A stretch of DNA of 64,000 nt, from the IMG/VR virus record IMGVR_UViG_3300027759_004238, positions 1 through 64,000 of that record; one strand, written 5' to 3'. The translations under genes were made by a program, and so were the position numbers. Under the pieces are notes generated by a model that did no database searches, was not told the DNA's origin, and was given only the letters and a program-made list of their open reading frames with translations. This document shows positions 10,331 to 64,000 of this stretch, in pieces. Position 1 is the first letter of the stretch. Each line of letters opens with the position of its first letter. This DNA is from a virus.

Positions 10331-10339
10331 TTTTATTAC

Positions 10340-11278: not shown

Positions 11279-11279
11279 A

Positions 11280-11900
11280 TTATCTAGGGTATCTTCCTCT
11301 TGGAGAATATTCTGGATCAAAAAGAAAAGGTGCAGTGTTTAGGTTATTGAAAGGATCATGCCATTTGACCACTGTGGGCAACAAATAGTGAGGATTGGAG
11401 CTTTCAAAATTATATAAAAGTGTATTATCTAAATCAAACATCCTGGAATTTAATAAGTGAATTTCTTCAAAAAAATTACTGCTTAATTCTATCGATTTGG
11501 TATCAAGGGTGGGTGCTTGTAGGTGAAGAGTTATTATAAATTCACTGTAATTTGGGGTTTCTCCAGATCCAAAGATAGCATCCATGACCGAATATACTTT
11601 AACATTAATATAAAAAGTTTTAGAAGTTTCTTTTTGTAAAATAAACGTGTGGGAAACTATTTCATTGCGCGGGTCTGTTATTTCATAAGGAAATTTTAAA
11701 AGATCATTTTTTTGATATGGAGTGGCTTTTAATATCTTGGTAATTGTAGAGGTTCCGTCATTAAAATCATATACTATTTTATAAGACTTTGATAGAGGAT
11801 CTGTAAATTGTGGATTTATAGACAATACAAAGGGGGATACTCTGTTTAATGTTTGAGTGAGTTCCAACGGATTTAAGGTTATGGAGGAAGAATTAAACAT
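11280..11900 (-). CDS. Structural protein with PKD-like segment (206 aa)
   Basis: The stretch YKIVYDFNDGTSTITKILK followed by VSHTFILQ resembles the core of PKD/Ig-like domains (W/YdFGDG...HtY). A PKD-like start also occurs in the 1039-aa protein upstream. Nothing else is recognisable. The ATG at 11900 has an exact TATAAATA 6 bases upstream. It is the first of two coupled genes (TAATATG to the 312-aa gene). A virion, probably baseplate, protein is inferred from context. Confidence 0.65.
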   Translation of the reverse strand: MFNSSSITLNPLELTQTLNRVSPFVLSINPQFTDPLSKSYKIVYDFNDGTSTITKILKATPYQKNDLLKFPYEITDPRNEIVSHTFILQKETSKTFYINVKVYSVMDAIFGSGETPNYSEFIITLHLQAPTLDTKSIELSSNFFEEIHLLNSRMFDLDNTLLYNFESSNPHYLLPTVVKWHDPFNNLNTAPFLFDPEYSPRGRYPR

Positions 11901-11906
11901 TTTAGG

Positions 11907-11914
11907 TATTTATA
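11907..11914 (-). promoter_or_regulatory. T4-late-type promoter element TATAAATA (exact)
   Basis: Exact match to the T4 late -10 octamer on the minus strand, ending 6 bases before the ATG at 11900, in the 34-base gap between two structural genes. No Shine-Dalgarno sequence fits between it and the start codon. Confidence 0.7.
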
Positions 11915-11934
11915 GATAATTTATTTTTATCAAA

Positions 11935-14900
11935 TTAAGAACAGCAATTAGAAACTGCATCTTTCCAAAGCTTAGAAGGAGCATATTCTATAGGAAAATT
12001 CTTTTTAAGTTCTGTAAATGTAATAGGATTTACGTTGGCTACCTTAATAGATGGCAGGGTTAAATTGTGGCAAGCAGTTGATTTCCACGACCAACAAAAA
12101 TTTTCTTTAATAATAGACGCACTAGACAGAGACAGATCAGAAATATTTAAAAATAATCTCAATTGATCTAAGGCATTATAAATTTTTGTCAATTCTCTGT
12201 TAAATACTTGAGGAATATGTAATTCGTTGACTCCTATGTTTACAGATTCATTTTCCACATCTTTTTCAAATTGAGGTTGATCACCAACCGGTACTGGATC
12301 TAAAGCAAAGTAATATAAATCACCTATATCTGTTTTTTTATAAATTTTTACAAATCTAGAATTGAGATTGTTTCTAAATGTTTTAATATTTTGAGTTAAT
12401 CTGACAAGTGATTTGTTGTAATTTACATCAGACGCAAATTCTTGTTTATCAAGTAATAATTGATCTAAAGACCACATTTGATAAGGAAGACCATCCCCGA
12501 TTTTAAATAAAGACACAATGTCTTGGACCTTTGCCACTGCATTTGGAGTGGCAATTAATAAATTCTGATTTGTGGCTTTCTTAATTGCAGAAGACGGAAA
12601 TTTAAAATCTACTATTCCTATATAAGTCCCTATGTAGGTGGTTGTACTGTTTTTTATAGGAGTTGATGTATATTTAAAAATCTTTGTGGGAGTTGTAATA
12701 TACAAGAAACTTCCGTTTTCGTCTAATATCATTTTAATAGCATCTTCTTTATTAGACATCATTTCTAATAAAGAAAACTGGATAAGCGGGGTTGATGGGT
12801 TAGATTCTATGAAGATATATACTCTCATAGATTTAGTCAAAATATAAACGGTGCCACTGTTTGTACTAGCAATACTAATAGGTTGGTCTGTGTTAAAATC
12901 TTCTGTAAAATAAGTGTGAATCCAATTAAGGTCTGTGGTATACTCCTTAACACATTGGTTATTATAATCCAACACAAAAACACTATCACTAGAAACAATT
13001 ACTTGGGAAGGAGCATTAAATTTTCCGGAATCATTTTTAGAACCAAAACCTCCTATATTAACAGAAAAGTTTATTGCCGGAGTGCTATAATCTATATTTA
13101 AGCAAACCACTTTATTGCGCGGTGGGTCTACGACATATATATTTGAAGTTTTTGTATCTATATCCATGCTGCAAGGAGCAACCATTTCCAAGTCCCAAGA
13201 AGAAGAAATGTCAGAGGAAGATACAAAAAGAGTTTCTACTGGTTTATAATGTTTATTATAAAAACCTCTCAGTTTAAAATTATCCAACACAAATATATAA
13301 TCATCAGTGGCTGCCACGTCTTGAATATTGGAAAAACTAGAACTGCCAGAATTTGTGGCAAAATTTAAATCCTCATAAAACAATTCATCAAAATTCTTAG
13401 CATACCAACGTATGCCTTCAGATTTTTTAAAAGAATTACATCCCAACCAACCATAAAACATAGAAGGTGAATCTGTGTCAATAGTTTGAGAATTTTCTCG
13501 CAAATATTGTAAATTATCGTGAAGACGAGATATGGCTGTATTAAAAATATCAACATCACCCCATTCATTGGGTTGAATTTTTATTTGATCTAATGAATAA
13601 TTAAATGCAAGAGAAGCTTCATTAATTGTTCGAATGGCTTCCTGGTTATATACAGTCCATTGTGGAAATATTGTAATGGCGTCTGGAAGAAAATTAATCT
13701 TAGATGTGCCATCGTTATAAAAGACTTCATATTGTATAAAGAACGAGCCACTTGAATTGTATGTATACTTGGCCGGTTGATTTTTGTCAGAAGAGACTGA
13801 TTGGGTAAATGTTCCACTAAGCTCGCCAAAATTTGTAACACAATGAGTTATGTAATGGTGTTCTAATTCATCTGGAGAGGTGAATTCTATGTATATTTCC
13901 TGGCCAGTTAGAGCTATGTAAGTGGACAAAAATGCCTGTGGCATGGACCCTGTATAATATGCGACAAGAGTCTGCCATTCATTGGTAGCAGAAAGACTAG
14001 TTGTCTGGATATACGGACTCCATAGGTCTCTGGCACTGGCATAACTGAATATAGAATAATTATCAAAAGTTGAAGAAGGTATCTGATAAGGCATCGTGGC
14101 AAATAACGGCCTGAATGATAAATGGTTGGTTTTAGAGTTGCTAATATACCCTTCCTCAAACGGATCACCTATATTCAAGGAAATGGCGTCAAATGTGCCG
14201 TCAATAGAAGGAACTGTAATTTCCTTAGCCCAATAATCGGTGGATAGTAGATAGGTAATAGTCCCGAAATCCTTAAGAGGCTGAGCCGGTGCTTCTAGAG
14301 GAGAGGTTGTAATGTGCTGGGTTAAAGTTATTATTCTAGTATAATCTAAATCCAACGAGGTAGTCGCCAATGAAAAATTAAACACTGTGTCTATTTTATG
14401 AGGTACAATGTAAGGATTTGACTTAAAGACATTTAATGAGGGGTTACCGGATAAATTTTGAGTTTGAGCGGTGATAGGGAATGTAAATGTTTTTAAAACC
14501 CCATTTTCCGGTTTAACATAATATATAGATGCGTATGAAGGATATGCTAAACTAAACCCCGACAAAGAAATCATTAGTCCAGACACATCAGAAAGTTCTG
14601 TGGTATATGGAATGTCTATGAGGCCAATATTAGCATTGACCGATGATAAAAATTTATAAGAAGACCCTATGCAGTAATTATATTCGTTAAATTTTTTATT
14701 AGCACTAACCCAAAAAGTTTGGCTACTAGATTTTTTATGAGAATATGCTGAAGGTGCCTTGGAAAGGGTGTAATTAGAAGGAGTTAATAATGTTAATTGA
14801 CGACCACCCAACCAAGCATACTCGGGATAAATAACAAATTCTAATGGCTTATAAAATTCTGCAGAAGTGGGTGTATATATGTAAACACTAGTCTCTACAC

Positions 14901-17694
14901 TATGTTCCGGGGATGATAAAAATTCTGAATTATCAGTTATATTGACATTGCCCCAGGCGTCAACTACGGCTTTGACTGCACTTAATGAAATGTAGGTTGC
15001 AGTTGCAGCAGTTTTAATGTTATAATTAATAAAATGATTTGAATACGGAACCGTAACAGAAGACAAGGTGTTTGCATTATCAGAAATGGTCCATACATAG
15101 GTAGTAGAGGGACTGATGTGTGAATTAGCGTAACTAGACAAGGATAATATATTTGTTCCGTCTTGTGGCCTTGTTAAAACATATTGATCTAAACCAGTAT
15201 CTAAAATAGTTCCTGATGGGCTTTGAAAGCTTGTATATCCTATACGAAAATCTGAATTTAATACAGAGCGAGCAGGAAAATCATCAACAACGAATTCATA
15301 GGTTGAGTATATGGCAGGTACTCTGACTTTGCTGCTCAGGTGAGCCCTAACATGGTTGAGAACTGGAATTGAATCGTTGTCTGTGGGAGTTATTTCTAAA
15401 TAAATAGAACTTAAGACATTAACACTCATTTCAGTTGCATACACATATGGAGTCTTGTTAGGTCCGTAATATGCATTGATGGGTCCTCTAGAAGGGGCAG
15501 TGTTTGTGGTATAATCCCACGTCCAAGAGACTGGGGTGTTGTAAGGTATGCTATACAATTGATTCCCGTAAGGCAGCAATGCTGTTAAGCTTATTGTTCG
15601 AGTGCGGTTAACGTTAGATAAAACAGAATTGGGGCCTATAATAAATTTGTTTAAAACAAACGGGTCATATAAAGCAGAGTTGGAAGTGAGGGAAGTGGTT
15701 TGATTATATTTTTGGGAAGATAGATATATCACCACTGTCGAAAATCCTGTACCAGACAATCTAACATTTTGGGTAAGATCAGAAAAAGCAACTTTTTCAT
15801 TAGCAGAAAGTGCTAATAAAGGATTGCCTAAAGAATCTATAGAATAAAGTTGAGCTCCTATTGTTTTGGGAAAGAAATCCCAGGAAATAAAAGAACCTAT
15901 TAAATTTTTAGTAGGCCATTGTGGTGCTGCCGTTAGAAAGGCACTGGTAACGTCGAATGCATCTACGGGCTGATCTATTAAATCTAGAAAAATAGGACTA
16001 CCAACTGCAGATTGAGTTTGATTTGGTGCAAAAAAGATGTTTACGGCTTCTTTAGATGCCAAATATCCAGCGGGTGAGCTTAAAGTGGAACGAATTGTTA
16101 AAAATGTTTCACCATAAGGGGTGCCCGGATAATCTATAAACAGCTTACAAGCAGAAGATACCGGAACCCACGGAGAAATTTCTATATTATAAGGCACGTT
16201 TAATGAAGGACCATAATAAAAATTAATAGCACTTAAAGAATTGTTGTTTCTAAACAATGAATTATCTGATAATAATTCAAATTTAATATATTCATTTAAA
16301 TTGTTATCCGGGAGATTGTAAGTCAATGCATTATAATCTGATCCTATAAAAGAAGAAAGTAAAGCATTGGAAGTTGTTAAATTTAAAACAGATGTTTGTA
16401 GAAAGAATGTTAGATTACAGGTATCTGCTTTGCTATTGTAACCATTACTAGGAGAATATAAAGAGGTTTTATAACTATAATAATGTGGAGGATATTTTGT
16501 TATCCAGGTAGAACTGCTTGTCAGATTCTGGTAATTTACAGGTATTCCTAGGGTTTTAACACTGCCGTTAATTTGAAAAGAAGTAAACGTGCTTTGACAT
16601 GATTCATTTGAAAATAGAAATTTATCACTGTCTATTATATAAGAAGCACCTATTATGCTTCCGGCGCGGCCAGTAACCGCGTTTACATGAGTAAAATTTT
16701 CCTTAATAAACTGTAAATTAAAATATTGTAAATTTGTAGACGACAAATTAAAAACTGCACTGAGTATGCAATAAGAGGAATCTCCTAAATTTTTAGTGCC
16801 TTCTTGGGGCCTATTTTGAAGCAGTTGAAATTTTTGTAATTTACCAGAGGATAATTCTGATTGGTTGAGAATATAAGAAGTTTTAAATGCGTGAGATATT
16901 AAGGGGTCCGTGTCGGGCAACACTTGACCCAATGAAGAAGTGCTTCCAGTGGGTTGAGTGTAGTCAACATTATAAGAAATAAATGTAGAATCTGGTCTAA
17001 TACACCCACCTATCCGATCCAAAGATCTACTAGCACTGTAGGGATTAAAATCTCCTGTAAAAGAAACCACCGGAACATCTTTCATCATCCTACAGGCAGA
17101 TAATTCAAATATAAAATTATTTGCAGTGTCTATTGGGAGAGGGTAAAAAGTGGGTTTGGTGTTTATGTGTTGGGTGTGCTGAAGATATGAAGGAAATTCA
17201 TGACTAGACCCCGAAAAGAAATAGGTTTGAGGAGATACTAGAACCGTGCTTGTGGTGAGAGTCCAAGAAGAAGCATTTTTCTGCAAAGAAAGGGGTTTTA
17301 GAAATAAACGAGCTGGATATAAGAGATATGCATAATATTTGCGATAGTATGCATCAGTTCCTGGATTGGACAGAGCATAGAAATAATTAAATTGTGGTCC
17401 AAAATTATAATTTTTGCGGTGAGAGGTTAAATCCCATACAAACTTAGAGTTTGGAGTGGTGTCTATTGCATATTGACTAACTATTGGAGAAAAGTTGTAA
17501 GTTATGCCAGAATAATTTACAGTGTGAAAAGAGTCTGTTTCATTCAAGGAATTGTTTAAATACCGAAACATATTTTCCGCGGGTAAAAACCCAGCATTTG
17601 GATCTATGTATTGATCCAACGGATTTATTTGATACGTTTCATTAGGCCAGATGCCTATGGTCTGTATATTAAAAGCTTGAATGCTGTTAGACAT
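11935..17694 (-). CDS. Giant baseplate/tail protein with NHL-propeller-like C-terminal region (1919 aa)
   Basis: The largest gene in the window. The first ~1350 residues are Ser/Asn/Tyr/Thr-rich beta sequence consistent with many Ig-like domains. Around residues 1400-1650 it shows repeated blades such as DDYIFVLDNFKLRGF, SNIYVVDPPRNKVVCLN, DSVFVLDYNNQCVKEY and GTVYILTKSMRVYIF, the pattern of NHL/SMP-30-type beta-propellers. The C-terminus contains several cysteines (FCWSWKSTACHN and a terminal SNCCS). It lies third after gp25 and gp6, in the position occupied in T4 by the wedge genes gp7-gp10, so a peripheral baseplate protein is the best inference. No sequence match to those T4 proteins is visible. 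ATG start, GCTAAATA 6 bases upstream. Confidence 0.8.
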   Translation of the reverse strand: MSNSIQAFNIQTIGIWPNETYQINPLDQYIDPNAGFLPAENMFRYLNNSLNETDSFHTVNYSGITYNFSPIVSQYAIDTTPNSKFVWDLTSHRKNYNFGPQFNYFYALSNPGTDAYYRKYYAYLLYPARLFLKPLSLQKNASSWTLTTSTVLVSPQTYFFSGSSHEFPSYLQHTQHINTKPTFYPLPIDTANNFIFELSACRMMKDVPVVSFTGDFNPYSASRSLDRIGGCIRPDSTFISYNVDYTQPTGSTSSLGQVLPDTDPLISHAFKTSYILNQSELSSGKLQKFQLLQNRPQEGTKNLGDSSYCILSAVFNLSSTNLQYFNLQFIKENFTHVNAVTGRAGSIIGASYIIDSDKFLFSNESCQSTFTSFQINGSVKTLGIPVNYQNLTSSSTWITKYPPHYYSYKTSLYSPSNGYNSKADTCNLTFFLQTSVLNLTTSNALLSSFIGSDYNALTYNLPDNNLNEYIKFELLSDNSLFRNNNSLSAINFYYGPSLNVPYNIEISPWVPVSSACKLFIDYPGTPYGETFLTIRSTLSSPAGYLASKEAVNIFFAPNQTQSAVGSPIFLDLIDQPVDAFDVTSAFLTAAPQWPTKNLIGSFISWDFFPKTIGAQLYSIDSLGNPLLALSANEKVAFSDLTQNVRLSGTGFSTVVIYLSSQKYNQTTSLTSNSALYDPFVLNKFIIGPNSVLSNVNRTRTISLTALLPYGNQLYSIPYNTPVSWTWDYTTNTAPSRGPINAYYGPNKTPYVYATEMSVNVLSSIYLEITPTDNDSIPVLNHVRAHLSSKVRVPAIYSTYEFVVDDFPARSVLNSDFRIGYTSFQSPSGTILDTGLDQYVLTRPQDGTNILSLSSYANSHISPSTTYVWTISDNANTLSSVTVPYSNHFINYNIKTAATATYISLSAVKAVVDAWGNVNITDNSEFLSSPEHSVETSVYIYTPTSAEFYKPLEFVIYPEYAWLGGRQLTLLTPSNYTLSKAPSAYSHKKSSSQTFWVSANKKFNEYNYCIGSSYKFLSSVNANIGLIDIPYTTELSDVSGLMISLSGFSLAYPSYASIYYVKPENGVLKTFTFPITAQTQNLSGNPSLNVFKSNPYIVPHKIDTVFNFSLATTSLDLDYTRIITLTQHITTSPLEAPAQPLKDFGTITYLLSTDYWAKEITVPSIDGTFDAISLNIGDPFEEGYISNSKTNHLSFRPLFATMPYQIPSSTFDNYSIFSYASARDLWSPYIQTTSLSATNEWQTLVAYYTGSMPQAFLSTYIALTGQEIYIEFTSPDELEHHYITHCVTNFGELSGTFTQSVSSDKNQPAKYTYNSSGSFFIQYEVFYNDGTSKINFLPDAITIFPQWTVYNQEAIRTINEASLAFNYSLDQIKIQPNEWGDVDIFNTAISRLHDNLQYLRENSQTIDTDSPSMFYGWLGCNSFKKSEGIRWYAKNFDELFYEDLNFATNSGSSSFSNIQDVAATDDYIFVLDNFKLRGFYNKHYKPVETLFVSSSDISSSWDLEMVAPCSMDIDTKTSNIYVVDPPRNKVVCLNIDYSTPAINFSVNIGGFGSKNDSGKFNAPSQVIVSSDSVFVLDYNNQCVKEYTTDLNWIHTYFTEDFNTDQPISIASTNSGTVYILTKSMRVYIFIESNPSTPLIQFSLLEMMSNKEDAIKMILDENGSFLYITTPTKIFKYTSTPIKNSTTTYIGTYIGIVDFKFPSSAIKKATNQNLLIATPNAVAKVQDIVSLFKIGDGLPYQMWSLDQLLLDKQEFASDVNYNKSLVRLTQNIKTFRNNLNSRFVKIYKKTDIGDLYYFALDPVPVGDQPQFEKDVENESVNIGVNELHIPQVFNRELTKIYNALDQLRLFLNISDLSLSSASIIKENFCWSWKSTACHNLTLPSIKVANVNPITFTELKKNFPIEYAPSKLWKDAVSNCCS

Positions 17695-51214: not shown

Positions 51215-52000
51215 ATGGAATATCTTTCTCTTACAACCTGTGTTAAAAACGAATCTCATTACATCCAGGAATGGTTGACCTATTACAAGACCCTTGGCGT
51301 TGAAAAATTTTATGTTTTTAATGATAAGAGTACTGATGACACAGAAGATAAAATAAATGATCTATCTTTCCGAGATGATATACTTTTAATAGATTTTGAT
51401 TCACCAAGCCCAGATAGACAGGGTTATGCTTATCAAGTTTCTTATAAAAATTACGGAAGAAACAACACTGAATGGATGATATATTGTGATGCAGATGAAT
51501 ATTTCATGCCAGAAGAACCAACAGATTTAAGGACTTTTCTAGAAGATTATAAAAATTATTCCGGGCTGGGTGTCAGCTGGCGTATATACGGTTCTTCCGG
51601 AAATATATTAAGAAAACCTGGTACTTGTTTAGAAAATTTTTTATACAGAGCTCGTGATGACTGGCATCCTAATACTCATGTAAAAGTAATAGTTAAACCC
51701 AATGAAATAAAAGGTTATATGACACCTCATATGTTTTCTACCACCAAAGGAATAGTAAATGAAAACGGCGATTTAATAGATGAAACTCAAGAAGGTAGAA
51801 TAGAAAAATCAATAGCAAATAAAATAAGAGTTAATCATTATTTTAACAGATCTTATGAAGACTGGATAGAAAAAAGACGAAGAGGAAGAGCCACTGTTAA
51901 TGAAAAAAGGCCTATAGAAATGTTTGATACATATGATAAAAATGATGTCTATGATGACCTAGCTCTTAAATATGTAGAAAAAGTTAAAAAATTGTTATGA
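51215..52000 (+). CDS. Glycosyltransferase, GT92/GT2-like (261 aa)
   Basis: YLSLTTCVKNESHYIQEWLT, YYKTLGVEKFYVFNDKSTDD and WMIYCDADEYFMPEEPTD are hallmark blocks of Glyco_tranf_2_4/GT92: KNE..yi.EWl.y....Gv..fyi.d..S.Dd, and D.DEF. DADEY is the metal-binding DxD. The C-terminus contains IRVNHYFNRSYEDWIEKRRR, also typical. It transfers a sugar (galactose in many relatives). The stop overlaps the next ATG by 4 bases (ATGA). Confidence 0.85.
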   Translation: MEYLSLTTCVKNESHYIQEWLTYYKTLGVEKFYVFNDKSTDDTEDKINDLSFRDDILLIDFDSPSPDRQGYAYQVSYKNYGRNNTEWMIYCDADEYFMPEEPTDLRTFLEDYKNYSGLGVSWRIYGSSGNILRKPGTCLENFLYRARDDWHPNTHVKVIVKPNEIKGYMTPHMFSTTKGIVNENGDLIDETQEGRIEKSIANKIRVNHYFNRSYEDWIEKRRRGRATVNEKRPIEMFDTYDKNDVYDDLALKYVEKVKKLL

Positions 52001-52791
52001 AAAAAATAAATTGGTTTTTTTGTTTGAATGAAAATAGGTCCGGGGCCTTTATGGACATGGCTAAAGTTGCAGTTCTAAGTTCATTGAGTTACAATTTTAA
52101 TGCTTACTGCTTATATGATGGTGATAATAAAGAATTCATTAATTTTCTAAAAGAAAATGGAGTGACTGTAATATTACACGAATCTTCTTTTAAAAATAAA
52201 ATAACAGAAATGGTTGAAGAGGTTGCTCACAAAACTTTTTATGGGGCCTTTTTGCGCATAGATATACCTTTAATAATTAAACAGCTAAACTTGGATATAG
52301 AGTATTATTTGTATACAGACTGTGACGTTATTTTTACCAGAGATCCTACAGATTTTTTATTGAAACTTACTCCAGAAACCATAGCAGCCACTGGAGAATT
52401 TAATCAAAATGATGTAAAGATGTTCAACTCCGGTGTAATGTGGTGTAATACCAAAAATATGCTTGATACATATCAGGAATTTTATGATTTTGTAATTTCC
52501 AAACAATTTAAATTTGTAGCGACAGATCAAGGAGCATTAAATGAATTTTATAAACATCAAAAAATATCAGATGAAATAAATTGGAAACCTTATTGGGGCA
52601 TAAATGAAAGTGCCTATTTAATTCATTTCCACGGACCTAAACCCTATCATTTTAAAATATACCTTAATGAAAGTAGAAAATTAACAAACCCTCACATTAA
52701 AAACTACGGTAGTTTTCTTAATGAAAAGCATGAGCTAGAATACAAATACTGCGTTAATCTATACAACGGCTTTTTAAGACAGACCTATTAA
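51997..52791 (+). CDS. Glycosyltransferase family 8-like (264 aa)
   Basis: INWFFCLNENRSGAFMDMAK leads a GT-A domain with TFYGAFLRIDIPLIIKQLNL, then EYYLYTDCDVIFTRDPTDFL, in which DCD is the DxD motif. KMFNSGVMWCNTKNMLDTY and TDQGALNEFYK follow, and YLIHFHGPKPYHF near the end. This is the glycogenin/LgtC-like GT8 layout (retaining). Overlaps the GT92-like gene by 4 bases. In other systems GT8 enzymes act on lipopolysaccharide or on protein-linked glycans. Confidence 0.8.
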   Translation: MKKINWFFCLNENRSGAFMDMAKVAVLSSLSYNFNAYCLYDGDNKEFINFLKENGVTVILHESSFKNKITEMVEEVAHKTFYGAFLRIDIPLIIKQLNLDIEYYLYTDCDVIFTRDPTDFLLKLTPETIAATGEFNQNDVKMFNSGVMWCNTKNMLDTYQEFYDFVISKQFKFVATDQGALNEFYKHQKISDEINWKPYWGINESAYLIHFHGPKPYHFKIYLNESRKLTNPHIKNYGSFLNEKHELEYKYCVNLYNGFLRQTY

Positions 52792-52796
52792 ACATT

Positions 52797-53798
52797 ATGA
52801 AAAAAACAAAATACTTTGATAAATCCTCTAGTTTGCACTTTCAACCAGATCCATATTTTTTATATGAGCTTCCTAAAGGATCTTTTATGTCCATGGATGG
52901 GGATATAGATGTAGCTAAAGACTCTTTTGGAGAAATAATACGTTCGTGTTCTGGTAATAGGATTAAAGATAGTAAAAAAGAAGCTATACCGGAAAAAATT
53001 CCAAAACATACTATAAAGAGTGATAAAAATTTGCTTCAGTTAAATACTGGTAGCCATTACTGGCATCTTCATCATGAGACTATCGGGCAATTTTTGCTTT
53101 ATAAAGATTTGGGTGTTCTTGAAAAATATACACCAGAGAACACTGCCATACTTATGACGTGGTGCAGAGCAGGTAACGTTTTAAAAGAAGTCCTGCGACA
53201 CATTTTTAATTTTAATATAGATAGTTATGAGCTAATTTTTGCGGAACGTGATGTTCTATATACTACAAAAGAAAATCTTGTAATTTCAACCAAAACATCC
53301 ACGGCTGGGTGCCTACCTTTATCCTATTTTTCAGAAAAATTAGAAAAATACTTAATTCCTGAAGAGAACCCAACAGATTTTATATATGTAGGCAGGGATG
53401 ACTCCGATTGCAGGCTTTTGCTAAATCAAGAAGAAATACTACAGTTTTTAAATGAAAACGATATACCAATTAGAAAAATTACATTAACCGGAATGCCTTA
53501 TATAGAACAAGTACAACTATTCAGAAACGCAAAATTTGTAATGGTTATCGGCGGTACAGGAAGTACAAACCAAATATACTGCAACCCAAACAAAGCTAAA
53601 ATACTATTTGTATCTCCTAAGAACGGAGCTTTACAGTGCAGTCAACGCACAGCAAAGGGGATGAATATGGCCTATAGTGGCCTTGAGATCGGAGAAAATT
53701 TTACTCCCACTAATAAAGCCAGAGCCTCGGATCCTACTTGTGCAAATTTTAAACTCAGAAAAGAGGATGTACTCAAAAAAATACAAAGTTTGTTATAA
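52797..53798 (+). CDS. Glycosyltransferase family 61-like (333 aa)
   Basis: NTGSHYWHLHHETIGQFLLY, CLPLSYFSEKLEKYL, then PTDFIYVGRDDSDCRLLLNQ, LTGMPYIEQVQLFRNAKFVM and VIGGTGSTNQIYCNP. These follow the GT61 (DUF563) pattern: yi.R.....R...Ne.e, l...s..eQi.lf..A..vvg.hGagl.N..F. GT61 enzymes add xylose, arabinose or GlcNAc in other systems. Substrate here unknown. Translation starts at ATG 52797, 5 bases after the GT8-like gene. Confidence 0.75.
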   Translation: MKKTKYFDKSSSLHFQPDPYFLYELPKGSFMSMDGDIDVAKDSFGEIIRSCSGNRIKDSKKEAIPEKIPKHTIKSDKNLLQLNTGSHYWHLHHETIGQFLLYKDLGVLEKYTPENTAILMTWCRAGNVLKEVLRHIFNFNIDSYELIFAERDVLYTTKENLVISTKTSTAGCLPLSYFSEKLEKYLIPEENPTDFIYVGRDDSDCRLLLNQEEILQFLNENDIPIRKITLTGMPYIEQVQLFRNAKFVMVIGGTGSTNQIYCNPNKAKILFVSPKNGALQCSQRTAKGMNMAYSGLEIGENFTPTNKARASDPTCANFKLRKEDVLKKIQSLL

Positions 53799-53805
53799 AT
53801 CCAAT

Positions 53806-54783
53806 ATGAAAAAAAATAAAATATGTCTAATATTTCACATGCACGGACAACTGCATCCGTTTTTTAATTTATTTTTGTACAGCTTGGCACAAAATAAGAA
53901 TATAGACTTTTTGTTTATCAATGACATAAAAAATAAACCGGAACTACCTTCTAATGTAATAGATAAATTTTTAACTGCTGAAGATTTAAATCCCATGTTA
54001 ACTGCTACTTTAAAAGATTGGTTTGATTTAGATATCCCGGATCCTTTGCTTTTAAACGTTAGAGAAAAAGAAACTGTATTTAAAGCAAAAACTCCAATGT
54101 ATAAATTTGCCGATTATAGGTGTTATTTTGATGACATTTTTAAAAAAGACTTAGAGGGGTATGAATATTGTGGTTATTTTGATAATGATACCATAATGGG
54201 TGATATTGAAAATATAATACAACCTTTAATGGATAAAAACTATAATTTTATAGGTTCTAGAGGGCATTTTTGTCTATATAAAAATGATGGGTTTATTAAA
54301 CAAATTCTCACAAATATTGGTGTTTGGCCTGAAAATGGGCATAAAAATTATTTAAACCTTAGTTTAAATAAACATAAAGATGAACTTATTAACAAAAATC
54401 ATAAACATCTTTTAACTTGTGAAGGGTGGTCACAGGGCACTGTAAAGGTGTATTCTACGTTGATTCCAACTTATAAATTTTATAAGTTGACGGAAAACGG
54501 TGAAATGTGTGATTTGTTTAACCCCGCAGAAAATGCTTCTTATAAAGATGTTTTCATACCAAGACATTTTGAAGAAAATAATATTAAAAATTACACCAAC
54601 CAGTATTTTTCTTATCAAAAAGGAAAATTATTTAGAATTCAGGACGAGCGGGGCATTAAAACCGAACATCTGTATTTGCACTTAATAGGCAGAACCAAGC
54701 TCATGATTAACAACATTAACATAACTAGTTATAATGAGGGACTGAGTTTTAACATAAAACCTAATTATTTTGAATTAATATGA
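53806..54783 (+). CDS. DUF6625-like putative glycosyltransferase (325 aa)
   Basis: The ATG at 53806 gives MKKNKICLIFHMHGQLHPFF, 7 bases after the previous stop. A longer frame from 53677 runs inside the GT61-like gene and is rejected. Key segments are FADYRCYFDDIFKKDLEGYE, YCGYFDNDTIMGDIENIIQP (DNDT replacing DxD) and IGSRGHFCLYKND. This matches the DUF6625 layout (k..DfrP.fg.if...l..y.fwGy.D.D...Gdi). Such proteins sit in bacterial polysaccharide and LPS gene clusters. Catalytic function unproven. Last gene of the cassette. Confidence 0.7.
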   Translation: MKKNKICLIFHMHGQLHPFFNLFLYSLAQNKNIDFLFINDIKNKPELPSNVIDKFLTAEDLNPMLTATLKDWFDLDIPDPLLLNVREKETVFKAKTPMYKFADYRCYFDDIFKKDLEGYEYCGYFDNDTIMGDIENIIQPLMDKNYNFIGSRGHFCLYKNDGFIKQILTNIGVWPENGHKNYLNLSLNKHKDELINKNHKHLLTCEGWSQGTVKVYSTLIPTYKFYKLTENGEMCDLFNPAENASYKDVFIPRHFEENNIKNYTNQYFSYQKGKLFRIQDERGIKTEHLYLHLIGRTKLMINNINITSYNEGLSFNIKPNYFELI

Positions 54784-54839: not shown

Positions 54840-55892
54840 ATGGAAAATTATACAATAAAACAACTTGATGAATTGATTAAAGAAAAAAGTAAATTGATGC
54901 ATGAAATAAGTGATCAGTTTACCGCCACTTTGACACCGGAACAACAAATACTTAGAGCAAATATTCACATAGTTCGATCTAGAGATGTAGAAGATTTACA
55001 TAAACAAAGAGAAGAATTGAGAATACAAGAACTTATTAAGAAGGCAAAGGAAGAAGATCCTCTTATTAAAGAAATTATTAAAGAAGTGTCTTCACCTTTG
55101 GCGGCTACTTTGGAGATTAAACCAGACAAAGTTCGTCATCACTATTTATTTCCCCTTGTTACAAAAGTATTAAATGCTCGTTGTCATGTGTGGCTTGTGG
55201 GGCCGGCTGGAAGCGGAAAATCTACCTTAGCTGCCGCTACTGCTGCTAAATTGAATCTACCATATGCTGCCTTAAGTGTGTGTAGTCAAACTACTAAAAC
55301 AGATCTCTTGGGATATATGGACGCCCAGGGTGTTTATAGGTCTACTAGTTTTAGGCAGGCCTATGAAAATGGTGGTATATTTTGTCTCGATGAAATAGAC
55401 AACGGCAATGCTAATGTTTTGGCGGTACTTAATAGTGCGTTGGCCAATGATTCAAATGAGTTTCCTGACAGAGCAGTTAAACGCCATGCAGATTTTGTGG
55501 TTATTGCATGTGCTAACACTTTTGGTTTAGGAGCAACCAGTGGATATGTAGGCAGAGTTCAGATAGATGCCGCAACGCTGGATCGTTTCTTTTTTATTGA
55601 AATGCCGTATGATGATGGATTAGAATCTCATGTTGCTGGTTACCCAGGAATTTCTTCACCTCAATGGGATAATGCTGGTCAAAAAGTTCCAACAGTAGAA
55701 TCCTGGCTTGAAACTGTTAAGAAAACACGAGATACAATAGTAGAATTGGGTATTAAGGCTATTATTTCGCCGAGAGCCACTTATATAGGAATTGCTTTAA
55801 TTAAGCAGGGAGTTCCTATTCAATTTTTAGAAAAGGGTCTTTTGTATAAAGCCATGTCACCAAATACAATTGACAAAATACGTCAGGCTTAA
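54840..55892 (+). CDS. MoxR/CobS-like AAA+ ATPase (350 aa)
   Basis: An N-terminal coiled-coil region (residues 1-100, with KEKSKLMHEISDQFTATLTP) precedes the AAA domain. Walker A is VWLVGPAGSGKSTLAAATAA and Walker B is GGIFCLDEIDNGNANVL. VVIACANTFGLGATSGYVGR gives sensor 1, then ATLDRFFFIEMPYDDGLE. This is the MoxR/CobS (AAA_5) type, which remodels partners usually bearing a VWA domain. The next gene encodes a VWA-like protein, so the two likely form a module. Target unknown. T4 has no such pair. Confidence 0.85.
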   Translation: MENYTIKQLDELIKEKSKLMHEISDQFTATLTPEQQILRANIHIVRSRDVEDLHKQREELRIQELIKKAKEEDPLIKEIIKEVSSPLAATLEIKPDKVRHHYLFPLVTKVLNARCHVWLVGPAGSGKSTLAAATAAKLNLPYAALSVCSQTTKTDLLGYMDAQGVYRSTSFRQAYENGGIFCLDEIDNGNANVLAVLNSALANDSNEFPDRAVKRHADFVVIACANTFGLGATSGYVGRVQIDAATLDRFFFIEMPYDDGLESHVAGYPGISSPQWDNAGQKVPTVESWLETVKKTRDTIVELGIKAIISPRATYIGIALIKQGVPIQFLEKGLLYKAMSPNTIDKIRQA

Positions 55893-55896
55893 TTGC

Positions 55897-56682
55897 ATGG
55901 AAACTATTCTCAACTTTGAATCTACACAAGATCTTATAGATTTTATAGATTATGGTAGTGACTCATCTGTTCTGAGTAATGCTCGGGGTGGGTGGTCTGA
56001 TGGGATGTCCTATATAGTTGATTTACTTCAAAATCTGCCGCTACAAATAGAACCAGAAAAATTCTGGAAGGAATTTTTTCCTGCTACAGCTGGCTTATTT
56101 TTTGATATAGGTTTAGTTTGTTCTGGTGCGCCAGAGTGCTGGCTTGATCCTCAGCAATCTTTTAATAAGGGATCTTTTATATCTAAAGACCCGGATGATG
56201 AAAGAAAAATCATTAAAATAGGAATAAACTCCACCGCTCCTTCTGGTTTCTCTAAAAATGCCATGATTGAAAGGGGTGCTATTGTTGCGGTGTTGGCTTA
56301 TTTGATAGAACAGTCGGGGCGGGCGGTTTCTATAACTCAATATTGTTCAATATCAAAAAATAATCATACATTTCGGGGTTCTGTAATTCTCAAAACCGCC
56401 GAACAGACCCTGGATATGAATTTATTATCTTTTTGGTTAGTTTGTCCGGACGCGTTTAGACAATGCTGGATGAGAGTTATTGAAAGTTTACCTAATGCAG
56501 CTGCGTTGGGTGTTATTCATGGTAGGTATGGAACACCGGAAATTAATTTTGGTGAAAATTTCTCCGATGTGTTTATTAAAGGAATTCGCACTAAAACTCA
56601 GGAGTGGACTAGAGATGATAGTGTTGCGTGGGTATGCGATAGTCTGTCCAAGTTAAAAATTAATTTCTTTTATGAAGAGTAA
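55897..56682 (+). CDS. VWA-like partner of the AAA ATPase, DUF7192-like (261 aa)
   Basis: ATG at 55897 (METILNFESTQDLIDFIDYG) is 4 bases after the ATPase stop. The central part, IIKIGINSTAPSGFSKNAMI then ERGAIVAVLAYLIEQSGRAV, follows the VWA/CobT-like layout: a beta strand ending in a weak MIDAS-like loop, then a helix R.GA...L...LE..G..V. The classical DxSxS MIDAS is not intact (GINSTAPS instead). The N-terminal half (GGWSDGMSYIVDLLQNLPL, FFDIGLVCSGAPECWLDP) is family-like for DUF7192 proteins of phages. Function unknown; partner of the MoxR-like ATPase by linkage. Confidence 0.65.
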   Translation: METILNFESTQDLIDFIDYGSDSSVLSNARGGWSDGMSYIVDLLQNLPLQIEPEKFWKEFFPATAGLFFDIGLVCSGAPECWLDPQQSFNKGSFISKDPDDERKIIKIGINSTAPSGFSKNAMIERGAIVAVLAYLIEQSGRAVSITQYCSISKNNHTFRGSVILKTAEQTLDMNLLSFWLVCPDAFRQCWMRVIESLPNAAALGVIHGRYGTPEINFGENFSDVFIKGIRTKTQEWTRDDSVAWVCDSLSKLKINFFYEE

Positions 56683-56684
56683 AA

Positions 56685-58052
56685 TTAAGAAATAATTTCT
56701 TTAACCACGTTTCCAAAGTTATCAGTTAATCGAAACTCTCTTCCGTTATAATTGTAAGTCAATTTTTTATGATCAAATCCCATAAGGGCTAAAATTGTAG
56801 CATGTAAATCATGAATATGTACTACATCTTTAATTGATTTGGAGCCGGTTTCATCTGTTTCGCCATATCGCTGGCCGCCTTTAACACCTCCACCAGCCAT
56901 CCACACAGAAAATGCCTTACCATTATGATCTCTTCCAGGGGCACCCGCGCCGCCGCCTGCCGTGACAGTACGACCAAACTCTCCACCCCAGATTACAAGA
57001 GTGGAATCTAGCTGTCCTCGCTGTTTAAGGTCAGTAAGAAGAGCAGAGAAGGCTTGGTCATATCTACCAGCGGTCCGGGTCATAGCTGTTTTTATATCCA
57101 TATGATGATCATAACCACCAACTTGGACTTGAACATACCGAACTCCTCTCTCTACCAGGCGCCGAGCAACCATCATTTTATTTCCTTCTTCGTTTTTGCC
57201 ATATAACTCATGGGTAGCTTCTGATTCTTTAGATATATCAAAAGCGTCTGTTGCTTCTGTTTGCATCTTAAATGCAGTTTCAAATGTTTCGATTCTAGAT
57301 TCCAGCTGAATGTCCTTCTGTAGGCGACTCATGTGATCATAATTCATCATCTTGGCTAAATCTAACTGCCGGCGCTGGCGGTCTAATGTAGAAAACTGAC
57401 TGGTTAGATTAGAAAGGATCTGATCTGACTTCATGTTATTTTTATATTGAACATTGCAACCCTGAAACATTCCGGGTAAAAAAGCACACTGTCTCCATTC
57501 TGGACTCCCATTTAAAGAAATGAATGCCGGCATATTTTGATTAGTGGTTCCTAGTCCATATGCCAACCAACTTCCTAAACTAGGCTTGGGCAATTGTGCT
57601 GATCCGGTATTAAACATTTTTTGGGCAATGTTGTGATCAGGAATTTCGGTAAACATGGAATTGATGATCGCCATATCATCAGCATGAGCTCCTAACTTGG
57701 ACCATACTTCAGAAATGTGCAATCCAGATTTACCAAATCGAGGAAACTCGAAAGGTGAAGCAAGAAGATTGCCATTGTCTCCTTTTTGGCCATCTCTTTT
57801 TTGCAGTTCGGGTTTGTAATCAAACGTATCAACATGGCTTGGAGCACCACTTGCTACTAGTTGAATGACTGCTCTTGCCTTTACAGGAAAGTGTGGATTT
57901 TTTGCTGCAAGAGGAGATACGGCTTCGGCTGTATTAGGACATACTCCCAACAAAGAAGCTAAAGACAATCCTCCCATACCCCACCCAAAATTAGTTAATA
58001 ATTCTCTCCTAGTAGTAGGAACGGACTCGATATGATTACCACAGTCTTTCAT
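56685..58052 (-). CDS. DUF1501 family protein with Tat-type N-terminus (455 aa)
   Basis: The N-terminus carries a twin-arginine motif (SVPTTRRELLTNFGWGMGGL) followed by a hydrophobic stretch and likely Ala cleavage region. DUF1501 blocks then follow: IQLVASGAPSHVDTFDYKP, PFEFPRFGKSGLHISEVWSK, AQKMFNTGSAQLPKPSLGSW, VIWGGEFGRTVTAGGGAGAP and PGRDHNGKAFSVWMAGGGVK. Length is typical (430-480 aa). The family is exported, related to sulfatases/alkaline phosphatases, and abundant in Planctomycetota and relatives; function is poorly known. Finding it in a T4-like phage is unusual. GC looks higher than in neighbouring genes. ATG in a TAATATG junction with the other DUF1501 gene. Confidence 0.88.
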   Translation of the reverse strand: MKDCGNHIESVPTTRRELLTNFGWGMGGLSLASLLGVCPNTAEAVSPLAAKNPHFPVKARAVIQLVASGAPSHVDTFDYKPELQKRDGQKGDNGNLLASPFEFPRFGKSGLHISEVWSKLGAHADDMAIINSMFTEIPDHNIAQKMFNTGSAQLPKPSLGSWLAYGLGTTNQNMPAFISLNGSPEWRQCAFLPGMFQGCNVQYKNNMKSDQILSNLTSQFSTLDRQRRQLDLAKMMNYDHMSRLQKDIQLESRIETFETAFKMQTEATDAFDISKESEATHELYGKNEEGNKMMVARRLVERGVRYVQVQVGGYDHHMDIKTAMTRTAGRYDQAFSALLTDLKQRGQLDSTLVIWGGEFGRTVTAGGGAGAPGRDHNGKAFSVWMAGGGVKGGQRYGETDETGSKSIKDVVHIHDLHATILALMGFDHKKLTYNYNGREFRLTDNFGNVVKEIIS

Positions 58053-58053
58053 A

Positions 58054-59325
58054 TTATGCTATAAGTTCTTTTACTGCTGTTCCGTTATAAACAACCGCAA
58101 CGGGCCGGCCATCTTGTGTCATAAGCTTAGAATCTGGATCAATTCCAAGCTGAGTATACAGAGTTGCCGCTAGGTTTTCAATAGTTAGAGGTGAATTATC
58201 CACATCTCCTCCAGTTGCATCAGAAGCACCGTGAATATATCCACGTTTAAAGCCTCCACCCGCAAATACTACTGAAAATACTCGAGGCCAATGATCTCTT
58301 CCGCCGTCTTTATTAATTTTTGGAGTACGACCAAACTCAGAAGATACCATTACAATGGTGTCATTAAGCATTCCTCTTTGATCTAAGTCGTTAATTAAAG
58401 TAGAATAAGCCTGATCAAAGGGAGGCAATGTCTTGCTGATCCCTGAACCAATACCAGTATGCATATCCCATCCTCCATATGTTACAGATACAAATCGAAC
58501 TCCTGATTCAACTAGGCGGCGAGCCATTAACAAACGCTGGCCGGCTTGATTGCGGCCGTAAGCGTCTCGGAGCATATCTTTTTCCTGGGTCAGATCAAAA
58601 GCTCCTCTTGCTTTCGGCGAAGCAATAAGATCATACGCCTGTTGGTAGAACGTATCCATGGCAGTAAGATTGTCACTCTTTTCTAGATATTTAAAGTGAC
58701 TATCAACTGTGTCAAGAATTCCTAGTCTTTTGCTAAAGCGCTCATCACTAACTGTGGTTTGAAGATCTCTTACTTTAAATCCAGGAGCTGCAGGGTCACT
58801 GCCTAAGCTAAAAGGACCAAATGCATTAGAAAGATATCCGGTCCCTGCCACATCGCTACCATTGTTGTCTAATTTTTGTGGAATACAAACGTATGCTGGC
58901 AAATTATTTTTGCTACCAAATTGATGAGACGTAACTGCACCAAAAGATGGGTAGTTAACTGCTGGAGAAGGCCTATATCCGGTAAACATGGTACTGGTTC
59001 CTCTCTCGTGAGCGGCATCACCATGGGTCATAGATCGAACTACTGTAATCTTATCTGCAATCTTTGCTGTCTTGGCCAAGTGTTCAGAAAAATGTACACC
59101 AGGAATTACAGTTTGTACGGAACCTAAGGGTCCTCTATACTCTGCAGGTGCTAATGGTTTTGGATCCCACATTTCTTGAGCGGCAGCTCCGCCGGGCAAA
59201 TAGATATGTATTACTGACTGTGCCTTCGGAACCAACCCAGACTGCGCTTGCAGTTTGAGCATGTCACCCGTAGCTAAACCCAAACCCCCAAACAACCCAG
59301 TGTATAAAAAATCACGTCTGTTCAT
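58054..59325 (-). CDS. DUF1501 family protein with Tat-type N-terminus, second copy (423 aa)
   Basis: Begins MNRRDFLYTGLFGGLGLATG, a short Tat-type signal. Then IHIYLPGGAAAQEMWDPKPL, PAEYRGPLGSVQTVIPGVHF, SEHLAKTAKIADKITVVRSM and THGDAAHERGTSTMFTGYRP. Later blocks are VMVSSEFGRTPKINKDGGRD, HWPRVFSVVFAGGGFKRGYI and NLAATLYTQLGIDPDS. These are the standard DUF1501 blocks, and all appear intact. It is only distantly similar to the neighbouring copy, so the pair is not a recent duplication. ATG at 59325 with ACTAAATA 5 bases upstream, so it is under phage-type late control. Confidence 0.9.
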   Translation of the reverse strand: MNRRDFLYTGLFGGLGLATGDMLKLQAQSGLVPKAQSVIHIYLPGGAAAQEMWDPKPLAPAEYRGPLGSVQTVIPGVHFSEHLAKTAKIADKITVVRSMTHGDAAHERGTSTMFTGYRPSPAVNYPSFGAVTSHQFGSKNNLPAYVCIPQKLDNNGSDVAGTGYLSNAFGPFSLGSDPAAPGFKVRDLQTTVSDERFSKRLGILDTVDSHFKYLEKSDNLTAMDTFYQQAYDLIASPKARGAFDLTQEKDMLRDAYGRNQAGQRLLMARRLVESGVRFVSVTYGGWDMHTGIGSGISKTLPPFDQAYSTLINDLDQRGMLNDTIVMVSSEFGRTPKINKDGGRDHWPRVFSVVFAGGGFKRGYIHGASDATGGDVDNSPLTIENLAATLYTQLGIDPDSKLMTQDGRPVAVVYNGTAVKELIA

Positions 59326-59330
59326 ATAGG

Positions 59331-59338
59331 TATTTAGT
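59331..59338 (-). promoter_or_regulatory. Late-promoter-like ACTAAATA before the DUF1501 pair
   Basis: Minus-strand octamer ending 5 bases before the ATG at 59325, overlapping the end of the 93-aa gene. It has the same element and spacing as phage structural genes in this window. Confidence 0.5.
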
Positions 59339-59615
59339 CCGCGCTAGGAACTTTTAGAATATATTGAGCCCCATCTTCTTTCATGGTTTCAAAAAACTTC
59401 ATAGTCATTTCATAAAATTCTATTTGTTTATCATCTGGAACACATCCAGTATATCTGTCTAGAACCAAATACATTACTGCTGCAACCCACATAGGATCTA
59501 TATCATGTGTGGCTTCATCTTTCAAACAAGGCATCCACATGTTTTCCTTTTCGGAAAAAATTCTACCTATGCTAACGATGGTTTCAACTGTTTCAGGATT
59601 TATATCTTGGCTCAT
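59334..59615 (-). CDS. Unrecognised acidic protein (93 aa)
   Basis: MSQDINPETVETIVSIGRIF opens an acidic alpha-helical protein with WVAAVMYLVLDRYTGCVPDD and DKQIEFYEMTMKFFETMKED. No family recognised. Its ATG overlaps the upstream GT9-like gene stop by 4 bases (ATGA), so they are co-translated. It sits immediately before the DUF1501 pair on the same strand. Confidence 0.6.
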   Translation of the reverse strand: MSQDINPETVETIVSIGRIFSEKENMWMPCLKDEATHDIDPMWVAAVMYLVLDRYTGCVPDDKQIEFYEMTMKFFETMKEDGAQYILKVPSAD

Positions 59616-60508
59616 AATTTACAATATTCTAAAAATTCTTTTTCATCAAAAATGTGATTAATGTCTTCATAAGGACATTCGTGATATCTTTTTCCAGTCC
59701 AATCCAACTCTTCCATGTAAGAATCAATGGAATGTCTAAAGGCAGGTCTTTGTTGTGGTGGTACATTTGTGTGAATTTTATGCCCAAATACATTTGGAGA
59801 ATTGCCTATCCATCCAACCACCGCTGGTTTGTTTAAAGCTGCTGCTATATGCTGAATCATAGAGTCCATGGCTATGATCTTATCTGAAAGATGAACATAA
59901 CAAAATAAATTTCTCAAATTGTCTGTTACACTTACAGTATTTTCTAATAAAATCTGCTTATCTCTCCTTACTTGAAGAACTTTATCGAATTGTTTGTACA
60001 ACTTGTTAACCAGGGATTGAGCAAATGCTGGTGGTAGATCTCTGGCCCATGAATAGGAATTTGGTTCATTATCTCCCCCACCAAATGGATGAATCATTAA
60101 TATAGATTTCTTTTTGTCAAGTACACTTTGAGCATTTACAATTTCTCTTTGAGACAACACTATAGTGGGTTGTAGAGTCGAGCAAGGAATGTGCAGTAAA
60201 TCACACCAGATTTCAATTAAAGATTTAGATTGATGTACAAAATCATGAGCATGATAGGGCTCTAGTCGAAAAATTAAAGAGTCTTTATTTTTAATAAAAT
60301 CTTCATAAAAATATGCAAAATTACCAGCTTTATAAACTCTATAAATTAAGGGATTGTGTAAAAATACTTCTGGCCACGCAGAAATAACAATTAATTTTCT
60401 GTTTGGATGAGCTGCTTTTATAGAAGTGCAAACTGCGGTGGCTAACACACTTTTGCCTACACCACCATCTATGTGAAATATAATATATTTTTCAGACATG
60501 TTAATCAT
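59612..60508 (-). CDS. GT9-like (heptosyltransferase-type) glycosyltransferase (298 aa)
   Basis: Blocks: YIIFHIDGGVGKSVLATAVC, RKLIVISAWPEVFLHNPLIY, SILMIHPFGGGDNEPNSYSW and DKIIAMDSMIQHIAAALNKP, then AVVGWIGNSPNVFGHKIHTN. The order GG.Gk.v...., hP.G, and D(S).iqHiAaAl..P.v..wg..p..fGh follows the GT-B fold of GT9/ADP-heptose transferases, and similar proteins occur in other myoviruses. The GGVGKS at the start is the glycine loop, not a true Walker A. ATG at 60508 (MINM) or 60499 (MSEK). Overlaps the next gene by up to 8 bases. Confidence 0.75.
   Translation of the reverse strand: MINMSEKYIIFHIDGGVGKSVLATAVCTSIKAAHPNRKLIVISAWPEVFLHNPLIYRVYKAGNFAYFYEDFIKNKDSLIFRLEPYHAHDFVHQSKSLIEIWCDLLHIPCSTLQPTIVLSQREIVNAQSVLDKKKSILMIHPFGGGDNEPNSYSWARDLPPAFAQSLVNKLYKQFDKVLQVRRDKQILLENTVSVTDNLRNLFCYVHLSDKIIAMDSMIQHIAAALNKPAVVGWIGNSPNVFGHKIHTNVPPQQRPAFRHSIDSYMEELDWTGKRYHECPYEDINHIFDEKEFLEYCKL

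Positions 60509-61012: not shown

Positions 61013-64000
<2,988 letters not shown>

Follow-up and report, generated by a model that had tools for sequence, protein, structure and literature searches.

Paired DUF1501 genes with Tat-type leaders in a T4-like phage and their relatives in Verrucomicrobiota

DUF1501 genes of Verrucomicrobiota and Planctomycetota are found in PSCyt/PSD (DUF1549/DUF1553) modules, the function of which is stated as unknown by He et al. 2017 (PMC5615132), where carbohydrate metabolism is suggested and PSCyt genes are linked with carbohydrate use and with sulfatase genes nearby. Another study suggests a redox role for a PSD1/PSC2 protein (PMC2754498). Here we describe two adjacent DUF1501 (PF07394) genes, A and B, in a T4-like phage represented by the IMG/VR record IMGVR_UViG_3300027759_004238, of which positions 1 to 64,000 (64,000 nucleotides) are hereafter called the window. 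Like the bacterial module proteins, A and B have a full-length domain, leaders of the twin-arginine translocation (Tat) type and the same invariant residues, and their best orthologues are 59-67% identical. The window is unlike the bacterial modules in that the partner is missing, A and B are stacked, the composition is phage-like and a late-promoter-like element is present; the order of A followed by a PSCyt gene, seen in some hosts, is shared by some other phages.

A further comparable system is a DUF1501-DUF1800 and chitin synthase operon of Proteobacteria (PMC5122149), which resembles the phage pair in having a DUF1501 protein with a Tat-type leader in a transferred glycan-related operon and differs in being bacterial and in having DUF1800 as the partner. 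For phages, one report names DUF1501 as a weak match of a 61-aa protein (PMC5418858), and the domain was already on record in a phage since A0A6J5M742 (BFVD/UniProt; Foldseek E 1.2e-10), compared here by name only, is called 'DUF1501 domain-containing protein [uncultured Caudovirales phage]'. The literature searched, largely without subscription papers and preprints, turned up no paper on DUF1501 pairs or PSCyt genes of phages, and we did not find the pairing, the host origin, the late-type motif or the partner gene described there. Phage auxiliary metabolic genes in general are similar in being host-derived genes kept by a phage; A and B are unlike them in their exported-type leader, in the several copies per record in some cases and in the late-type element in gp23-positive records.

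The reading that we favour, at about even confidence, is that A and B are Tat-leader DUF1501 proteins captured from Verrucomicrobiota (a Chthoniobacteraceae/Spartobacteria-like set), kept as working phage genes and used late in infection at the envelope.

Host ancestry and distribution among phages

Both genes match the PF07394 profile over positions 1-390 of 390, with 430 bits (E 9e-129) for A and 371 bits (E 1e-110) for B against a curated cut-off of 27 bits, and a single base separates the stop of B from the start of A. They are 33% identical to each other. The source record of 81,289 bases, possibly a fragment, has matches to gp23 (E 3e-90), the portal protein (phrog_213, E 3e-97), SbcC/D and a baseplate wedge protein. 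A preliminary description of the window, made from the sequence alone, had called the genes adjacent, intact and not close paralogues, and the genome T4-like; all of this is borne out, with the open reading frames (ORFs) exact to the base. No PHROGs family was found for A or B, and in INPHARED A had no match, whereas B weakly matched a single entry (31%, E 2e-6).

Among the best 80 of 575 bacterial loci for B, the top eight relatives are 63-67% identical and all come from Verrucomicrobiota assemblies (titled Chthoniobacteraceae in three cases and Spartobacteria, Verrucomicrobiota, Verrucomicrobiaceae, Prosthecobacter and Akkermansia in the others), followed by Gemmata (Planctomycetota) at 61%. 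A search for A in 37 genomes drawn from these 80 loci gave its best matches in the same eight genomes (those behind L090-L097), with 59-65% identity and E values no higher than 4e-179; the genome ranked next stood at 55% and E 4e-154. With the limit set at E 1e-70, 36 of the 37 genomes each had from 3 to at least 45 matches to A.

A tree of A with 60 rows unites 21 phage rows in a single clade (support 90/86, not starred), 19 of these grouping at 100/98, and the sister to this clade is A of two host genomes (G116 and G118; 96/95). The A protein of the window pairs with that of G044 (100/94), and two clades defined by gp23, described below, are interleaved in the A tree, which suggests exchange between phages; distant A-like phage genes stand apart, some on long branches of unsure place. 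The tree of B, with 67 rows, gathers 13 phage rows into a clade of their own (100/97), which stands next to the Chthoniobacteraceae/Spartobacteria-like set at weak support (89/64), and places 16 copies from a second group of phages, without gp23, in another clade (100/98) beside a planctomycete (100/99), with three further phage copies elsewhere. These 21 phage copies of A and 13 of B thus each form one clade beside Verrucomicrobiota orthologues in the comparison with bacterial DUF1501 that the preliminary description had called for. By these phylogenies A and B appear as genes captured from Verrucomicrobiota-type bacteria, the host ancestry that is asked of an auxiliary metabolic gene, and the phage is probably a virus of Verrucomicrobiota bacteria.

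The GC content at third codon positions (GC3) is 0.31 for A and 0.30 for B, close to the window mean of 0.27 (standard deviation 0.04, 50 ORFs), as against 0.59-0.87 for five host orthologues. Both genes are under purifying selection. The ratio of nonsynonymous to synonymous substitution frequencies (dN/dS) was 0.02-0.14 for close pairs of A and 0.06-0.17 for close pairs of B, keeping pairs with dS of 0.05 to 2.5, many of which have dS near 2 and close to saturation; comparisons with the distant L199 and L208 yielded 0.24-0.34.

Scans of viral contigs gave the best 80 of 101 loci for B and 6 further loci for A. Together with the window there are 87 sources. Each of them has DUF1501 ORFs when end fragments are counted: one in 12, two in 41, three in 22 and four in 12 sources, including overlapping or near-copy loci (L003 and L083 are one contig). 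PF07394 matched in all 46 virus records picked from these sources, and gp23 was present in 6 of them and in 4 of 27 further records. The layout of the pair varies: the genes are adjacent in L010 and L015, lie on opposite strands flanking a deaminase-like gene in L014 and are 46 kb apart in G002.

To see the reverse relationship, 44 of 80 gp23 relatives found regardless of DUF1501 were searched with PF07394, and 43 of the 44 lacked it (7 of these being longer than 100 kb), the only positive being the already known G006. A core gene of T4-like phages was rejected on this count. The ten DUF1501-positive records are spread over three parts of a gp23 tree with 89 rows, namely clade I, clade II and G062 alone; when fragments are scored as negative, five changes of the DUF1501 label are required. 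Clade I, to which the window belongs, has 11 rows (100/99); all four of its records longer than 20 kb carry DUF1501, the other seven being fragments below 17 kb (three searched without a match and four not searched). Clade II consists of five records, every one found through DUF1501.

The second group of phages, without gp23, has up to four DUF1501 paralogues per record, and terminase-sized phrog_2 matches in G020, G028, G029, G030 and G037; shorter phrog_2 matches, at about 234 aa, resemble PhoH and were left out of the terminase count. A check led by the terminase (13 records of 80 loci) found DUF1501 in 4 of 4 records above 90 kb, three known before and one new (G153, cut by the contig end), and in 0 of 9 records below 62 kb; with about 78-95 kb between terminase and DUF1501, records this short would be expected to miss the gene. 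The records of L010-L013 had no gp23 or phrog_2 match, two of them (G003 and G004) also none to phrog_213, and their matches to tail-fibre, exonuclease and peptidase families do not settle the phage class.

DUF1501 genes therefore go with certain phage clades and are not universal. The preliminary description had not known the family from any phage module, which needs correcting in view of its recurrence in several phage lineages, and had argued against host contamination. Contamination or a chimeric assembly would account for the lack of DUF1501 in 43 of 44 gp23 relatives; it is nonetheless so improbable as to be nearly negligible, and was rejected, since the B-A pair recurs behind homologous upstream genes in a separate, gp23-positive contig of 227 kb (L003), orthologues are present in other independent viral contigs, some long and gp23-positive, and GC3 and the late-type motif are phage-like. 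Relatives without the pair together with bacterial flanks had been named as grounds for abandoning the phage assignment; most relatives do lack DUF1501 but the flanks here are phage, which points to gain in certain clades.

Promoter-like elements, leaders and predicted fold

The sequence ACTAAATA occurs once in the window, at the position before B that the preliminary description had reported. The T4 late promoter is TATAAATA, with the core TAAATA. Of the 56 window ORFs of at least 90 aa, 21 have this core in the 30 nt before their start, as compared with 2.35% of 2000 random 30-mers. Late expression is likely in the gp23-positive phages, because the ten DUF1501-positive gp23 records have TAAATA ahead of their first genes at 11 of 12 starts, 9 of them at exactly 5 nt. 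In the gp23-negative second group it was found at 2 of 141 starts, some of which may have been called too far upstream. The TAATATG junction between B and A is likewise as first read and is reused at 4 other ORF starts in the window (4977, 23157, 31673 and 50862).

The timing bears on the idea that exported A and B change or mask a receptor and so block superinfection by related phages. Exported-type leaders and the exchange of copies among phage clades would suit such a role, but exclusion genes are usually expressed early and the motif here is of the late type, which makes this idea improbable.

The twin-arginine N-termini TTRRELL (A) and NRRDFL (B) are as originally read and are conserved among viral copies. 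C4, G5, H7, R15 and R16 of the A leader are invariant among 10 A orthologues, and in an alignment of 56 phage and host sequences R3 and R4 of B are found in 55 and 56 rows, respectively. Among 167 non-redundant viral copies of at least 380 aa, RRx[FLMI] lies within the first 60 residues in 166, with starts trimmed using that motif; in the untrimmed ORFs, RR lies within the first 45 residues in 156. Both leaders have the RRx[FLMI] motif of Tat substrates, and export via TatABC is predicted.

AlphaFold models of A (pLDDT 79.1, pTM 0.80) and B (pLDDT 88.6, pTM 0.87) have NPP phosphodiesterases, PafA and sulfatases, including a carrageenan sulfatase, as their nearest structural neighbours. The resemblance to the alkaline phosphatase superfamily lies in the fold: the VIA Z score was 21.1 for A against PafA (root mean square deviation 4.5 over 283 residues) and 19.9 for B against NPP (3.2 over 247 residues). 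Sequence searches of B against PDB chains gave two phmmer matches only (best E 0.065), and a profile search against PDB gave a best E of 0.18, mostly to sulfatases, LtaS and ENPP4.

The active site was assigned from alignments. Invariant in all 56 phage and host sequences (B numbering) are H106, T115, E248, R269, R270, D287, H289, D304, D313, E330, F331, R333, R343, D344 and H345, and position 51 is Glu or Asp throughout. T115 belongs to a helix T-G, the G116 of which is present in 53 of the 56 rows, and H106 lies 9 residues before this T in every row. Two Verrucomicrobiota sulfatases, taken as reference for nucleophile spacing (CGPSRNSFLTG and CNPSRVSLLTG, both Pfam Sulfatase), have Cys at that position. 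The nucleophile slot thus holds His instead of Ser, Thr or Cys in 56 of 56 sequences, and because of this the classical Thr/Ser/formylglycine reaction is probably absent. The sulfatase Asp-His metal pair (SDHG) aligns to EF(GRT) in all 56, in weak hhalign alignments (probability 7.6% and 59%). Sulfatases also have Asp-Asp where A and B have a Gly-Gly-type turn.

Judged from these residues, neither A nor B looks like a classical phosphatase or sulfatase, and this identity was rejected, if only on weak profile alignments. Of the comparison with alkaline phosphatases and sulfatases that had been proposed earlier, the fold therefore stands and the active site does not, the nucleophile and metal ligands being substituted in those alignments; of the suggested exported hydrolase, the Tat-type leader stands, and hydrolase chemistry would follow from the fold alone. 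Replacement of the canonical nucleophile and metal residues would also be expected if A and B were non-catalytic decoys that bind host PSCyt/PSD complexes or envelope polymers, but the strictly invariant set of His, Asp, Glu and Arg residues in 56 phage and host sequences looks catalytic, and we regard decoys as quite improbable, more so than a role in exclusion.

Partner genes and possible roles

The preliminary description had noted the absence of the usual DUF1549/DUF1553 partner gene. This holds for the record of 81,289 bases (possibly a fragment), in which PSD1 (DUF1553) had no match, but not for some of its relatives. PSD1 was found in 3 of the 46 virus records (G042, G043 and G045, the first two apparent near-copies), where a PSCyt1-PSCyt2-PSD1 protein of 987 aa is encoded directly after A, and G046 is a fourth case. 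Among the 25 other viral loci in which A is at least 67% identical, 4 thus have such a gene right behind A; B is in the same record in at least 12 of those 25 loci, some records having been searched only in part. In the gp23-positive G062 a PSCyt2-PSD1 gene forms one run with B-like and A-like DUF1501 genes. The three-gene run at L200 (7036-11392, gp23-positive record) has a PSCyt2-PSD1 protein of 577 aa without a PSCyt1 match, B-like and A-like DUF1501 genes, and TATAAATA 5 nt before the first ATG. Distant viral A-like genes have a PSCyt-PSD gene next to them, or at most about 1.2 kb away, in L191, L192, L194, L197, L199, L205, L207, L208, L210 and L211, and among the records of these loci terminase-sized phrog_2 matches are present in G061, G066 and G067.

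In the hosts, the A orthologue is followed by a PSCyt-PSD homologue (42-55% identical) in 5 of 9 loci fetched, one of which was checked with Pfam, and no such homologue follows in the other 4. Some phage relatives thus keep the host order of A and then the cytochrome partner gene. In the two loci checked, the bacterial orthologues of B belong to a separate operon, together with PPC-domain, PSCyt2/PSD1 and PSCyt1-WD40 genes.

If the favoured reading of captured, late-acting envelope proteins is right, A and B would be made at the same late stage of infection as the virion proteins and would pass in folded form through the host Tat system to act at the periplasm or cell surface, where A might work with a PSCyt-PSD partner supplied by the host or the phage; the outcome would be easier release of progeny and/or progeny kept from binding debris. 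For the role by itself we tentatively suggest, at somewhat less than even confidence, a late chemical alteration of an ester-bearing envelope or surface glycan of a host from the Planctomycetes-Verrucomicrobia-Chlamydiae (PVC) group.

Alternatively, A and B may be auxiliary metabolic genes, whose exported products release phosphate, sulfate or sugar from dissolved or surface glycans, with PSCyt passing electrons, and so feed phage synthesis. Their host origin, the many DUF1501 copies in host genomes, the reported link of PSCyt with carbohydrate use and nearby sulfatase genes, and the PafA phosphatase and carrageenan sulfatase among the fold relatives all speak for this; late-type promoter elements are odd for a nutrient gene and the canonical phosphatase and sulfatase residues are replaced, and we hold this alternative to be possible if somewhat unlikely. 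A broader proposal, which we think rather unlikely, is that a recurring exported module of PVC phages consists of an alkaline-phosphatase-fold enzyme with a new active site (the invariant His in the nucleophile slot and a cluster of Asp, His, Glu and Arg), late in T4-like members, that would serve redox-linked envelope or glycan modification, sometimes with a phage c-type cytochrome (PSCyt1-PSCyt2-PSD1), and that was captured repeatedly and exchanged between phage lineages.

Several observations weigh against late use of A and B as envelope enzymes. TAAATA is missing at A of the gp23-positive G049 and is kept before B in 5 of 12 listed relatives, being missing in 7 (including L010 and L011, gp23-negative); the motif is moreover a short AT-rich word in a genome of 36.5% GC and overlaps a stop codon at B. 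Foldseek TM-scores for B are low (0.31-0.41, the best E of 1.8e-7 being at a TM-score of 0.41), and the replaced catalytic residues could equally mean lost activity. The genes are dispensable for such phages, because nearly all gp23-related records searched are without them. The genome behind L154, with 61% identity for B, is the one of the 37 with no A match at E 1e-70. The PSD1 member of the B operon is not in the window record, where its other members were not searched, and the role of the PSCyt module is itself described as unclear.

Genomic setting and implications

The features of the window are listed in Table 1. The co-directional run that contains the pair also holds genes for proteins of 157, 298, 93 and 900 aa, the last being collagen-like.

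Table 1. Coordinates of the gene pair, its sequence elements and other genes in the window
Feature	Coordinates	Strand	Basis
Gene A, DUF1501 protein, 455 aa, alkaline-phosphatase-superfamily fold (model)	56685..58052	-	Pfam, model, tree, host neighbours
Gene B, DUF1501 protein, 423 aa, alkaline-phosphatase-superfamily fold (model)	58054..59325	-	Pfam, model, tree
Tat-type leader of A (MKDCGNH...TTRRELL...AEA), about residues 1-45	57918..58052	-	sequence
Tat-type leader of B (MNRRDFL...LQA), about residues 1-27	59245..59325	-	sequence
TAATATG junction: B stop, one base, A start	58050..58056	-	sequence
ACTAAATA, T4-late-promoter-like, 5 nt before B ATG, overlapping TAA of upstream 93-aa ORF	59331..59338	-	sequence
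93-aa protein, function unknown, directly upstream of B, same direction	59334..59615	-	cluster members in 7 sources including the window
298-aa protein, upstream in same gene run	59612..60508	-	glycosyltransferase-9 match weak, below cut-off; phrog_8954 E 2e-13
900-aa protein, Gly-X-Y collagen-like repeats, perhaps a fibre, upstream of pair, same direction	61013-63715	-	Pfam Collagen E 1e-57
589-aa protein	841-2607	-	phage 'regulator of chromosome condensation' (RCC1-like repeat) and tail-protein families
Glycosyltransferase-like gene run	51215-54783	+	Pfam on four genes: GT2/GT92, Nucleotid_trans, GT61, DUF6625
AAA_5 ATPase, converging on A	54840-55892	+	phrog_249 (labelled porphyrin biosynthesis)
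DUF7192/phrog_1909 protein after the AAA_5 ATPase gene, converging on A	55894-56682	+	

Some further genes were seen in related records. In the second group, small proteins with exported-looking N-termini are encoded near DUF1501 genes (L053 4969-5457, L031 12554-12979 and L047 12502-12882), the first being of the Tat type with an EF-hand match below the cut-off. Two records that carry DUF1501 have a protein like the lysis-inhibition protein rIIA (L199 629-3280, phrog_612 E 2e-110) and a 35% relative (L049 2951-4867), respectively. L089 contains a Radical-SAM-like protein (15028-15777, record 78028-78777), QueE-like by eye and with a Pfam match only to Fer4_12 below the cut-off, which might fit 7-deazaguanine DNA modification, and a run of glycosyltransferase-like genes, also judged by eye (6655-12528).

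PVC genomes encode many DUF1501 and PSCyt/PSD proteins, yet these are without known function. Phages that keep one or two paralogues under strong selection point to those that matter in infection and offer a small set for assays. To our knowledge few phages have been described for Verrucomicrobiota and Planctomycetota, the phage P8625 reportedly being the first lytic phage of Verrucomicrobia, and DUF1501 genes may mark phages of these two phyla. The leaders also suggest that the host Tat system can be an export route for late phage proteins.

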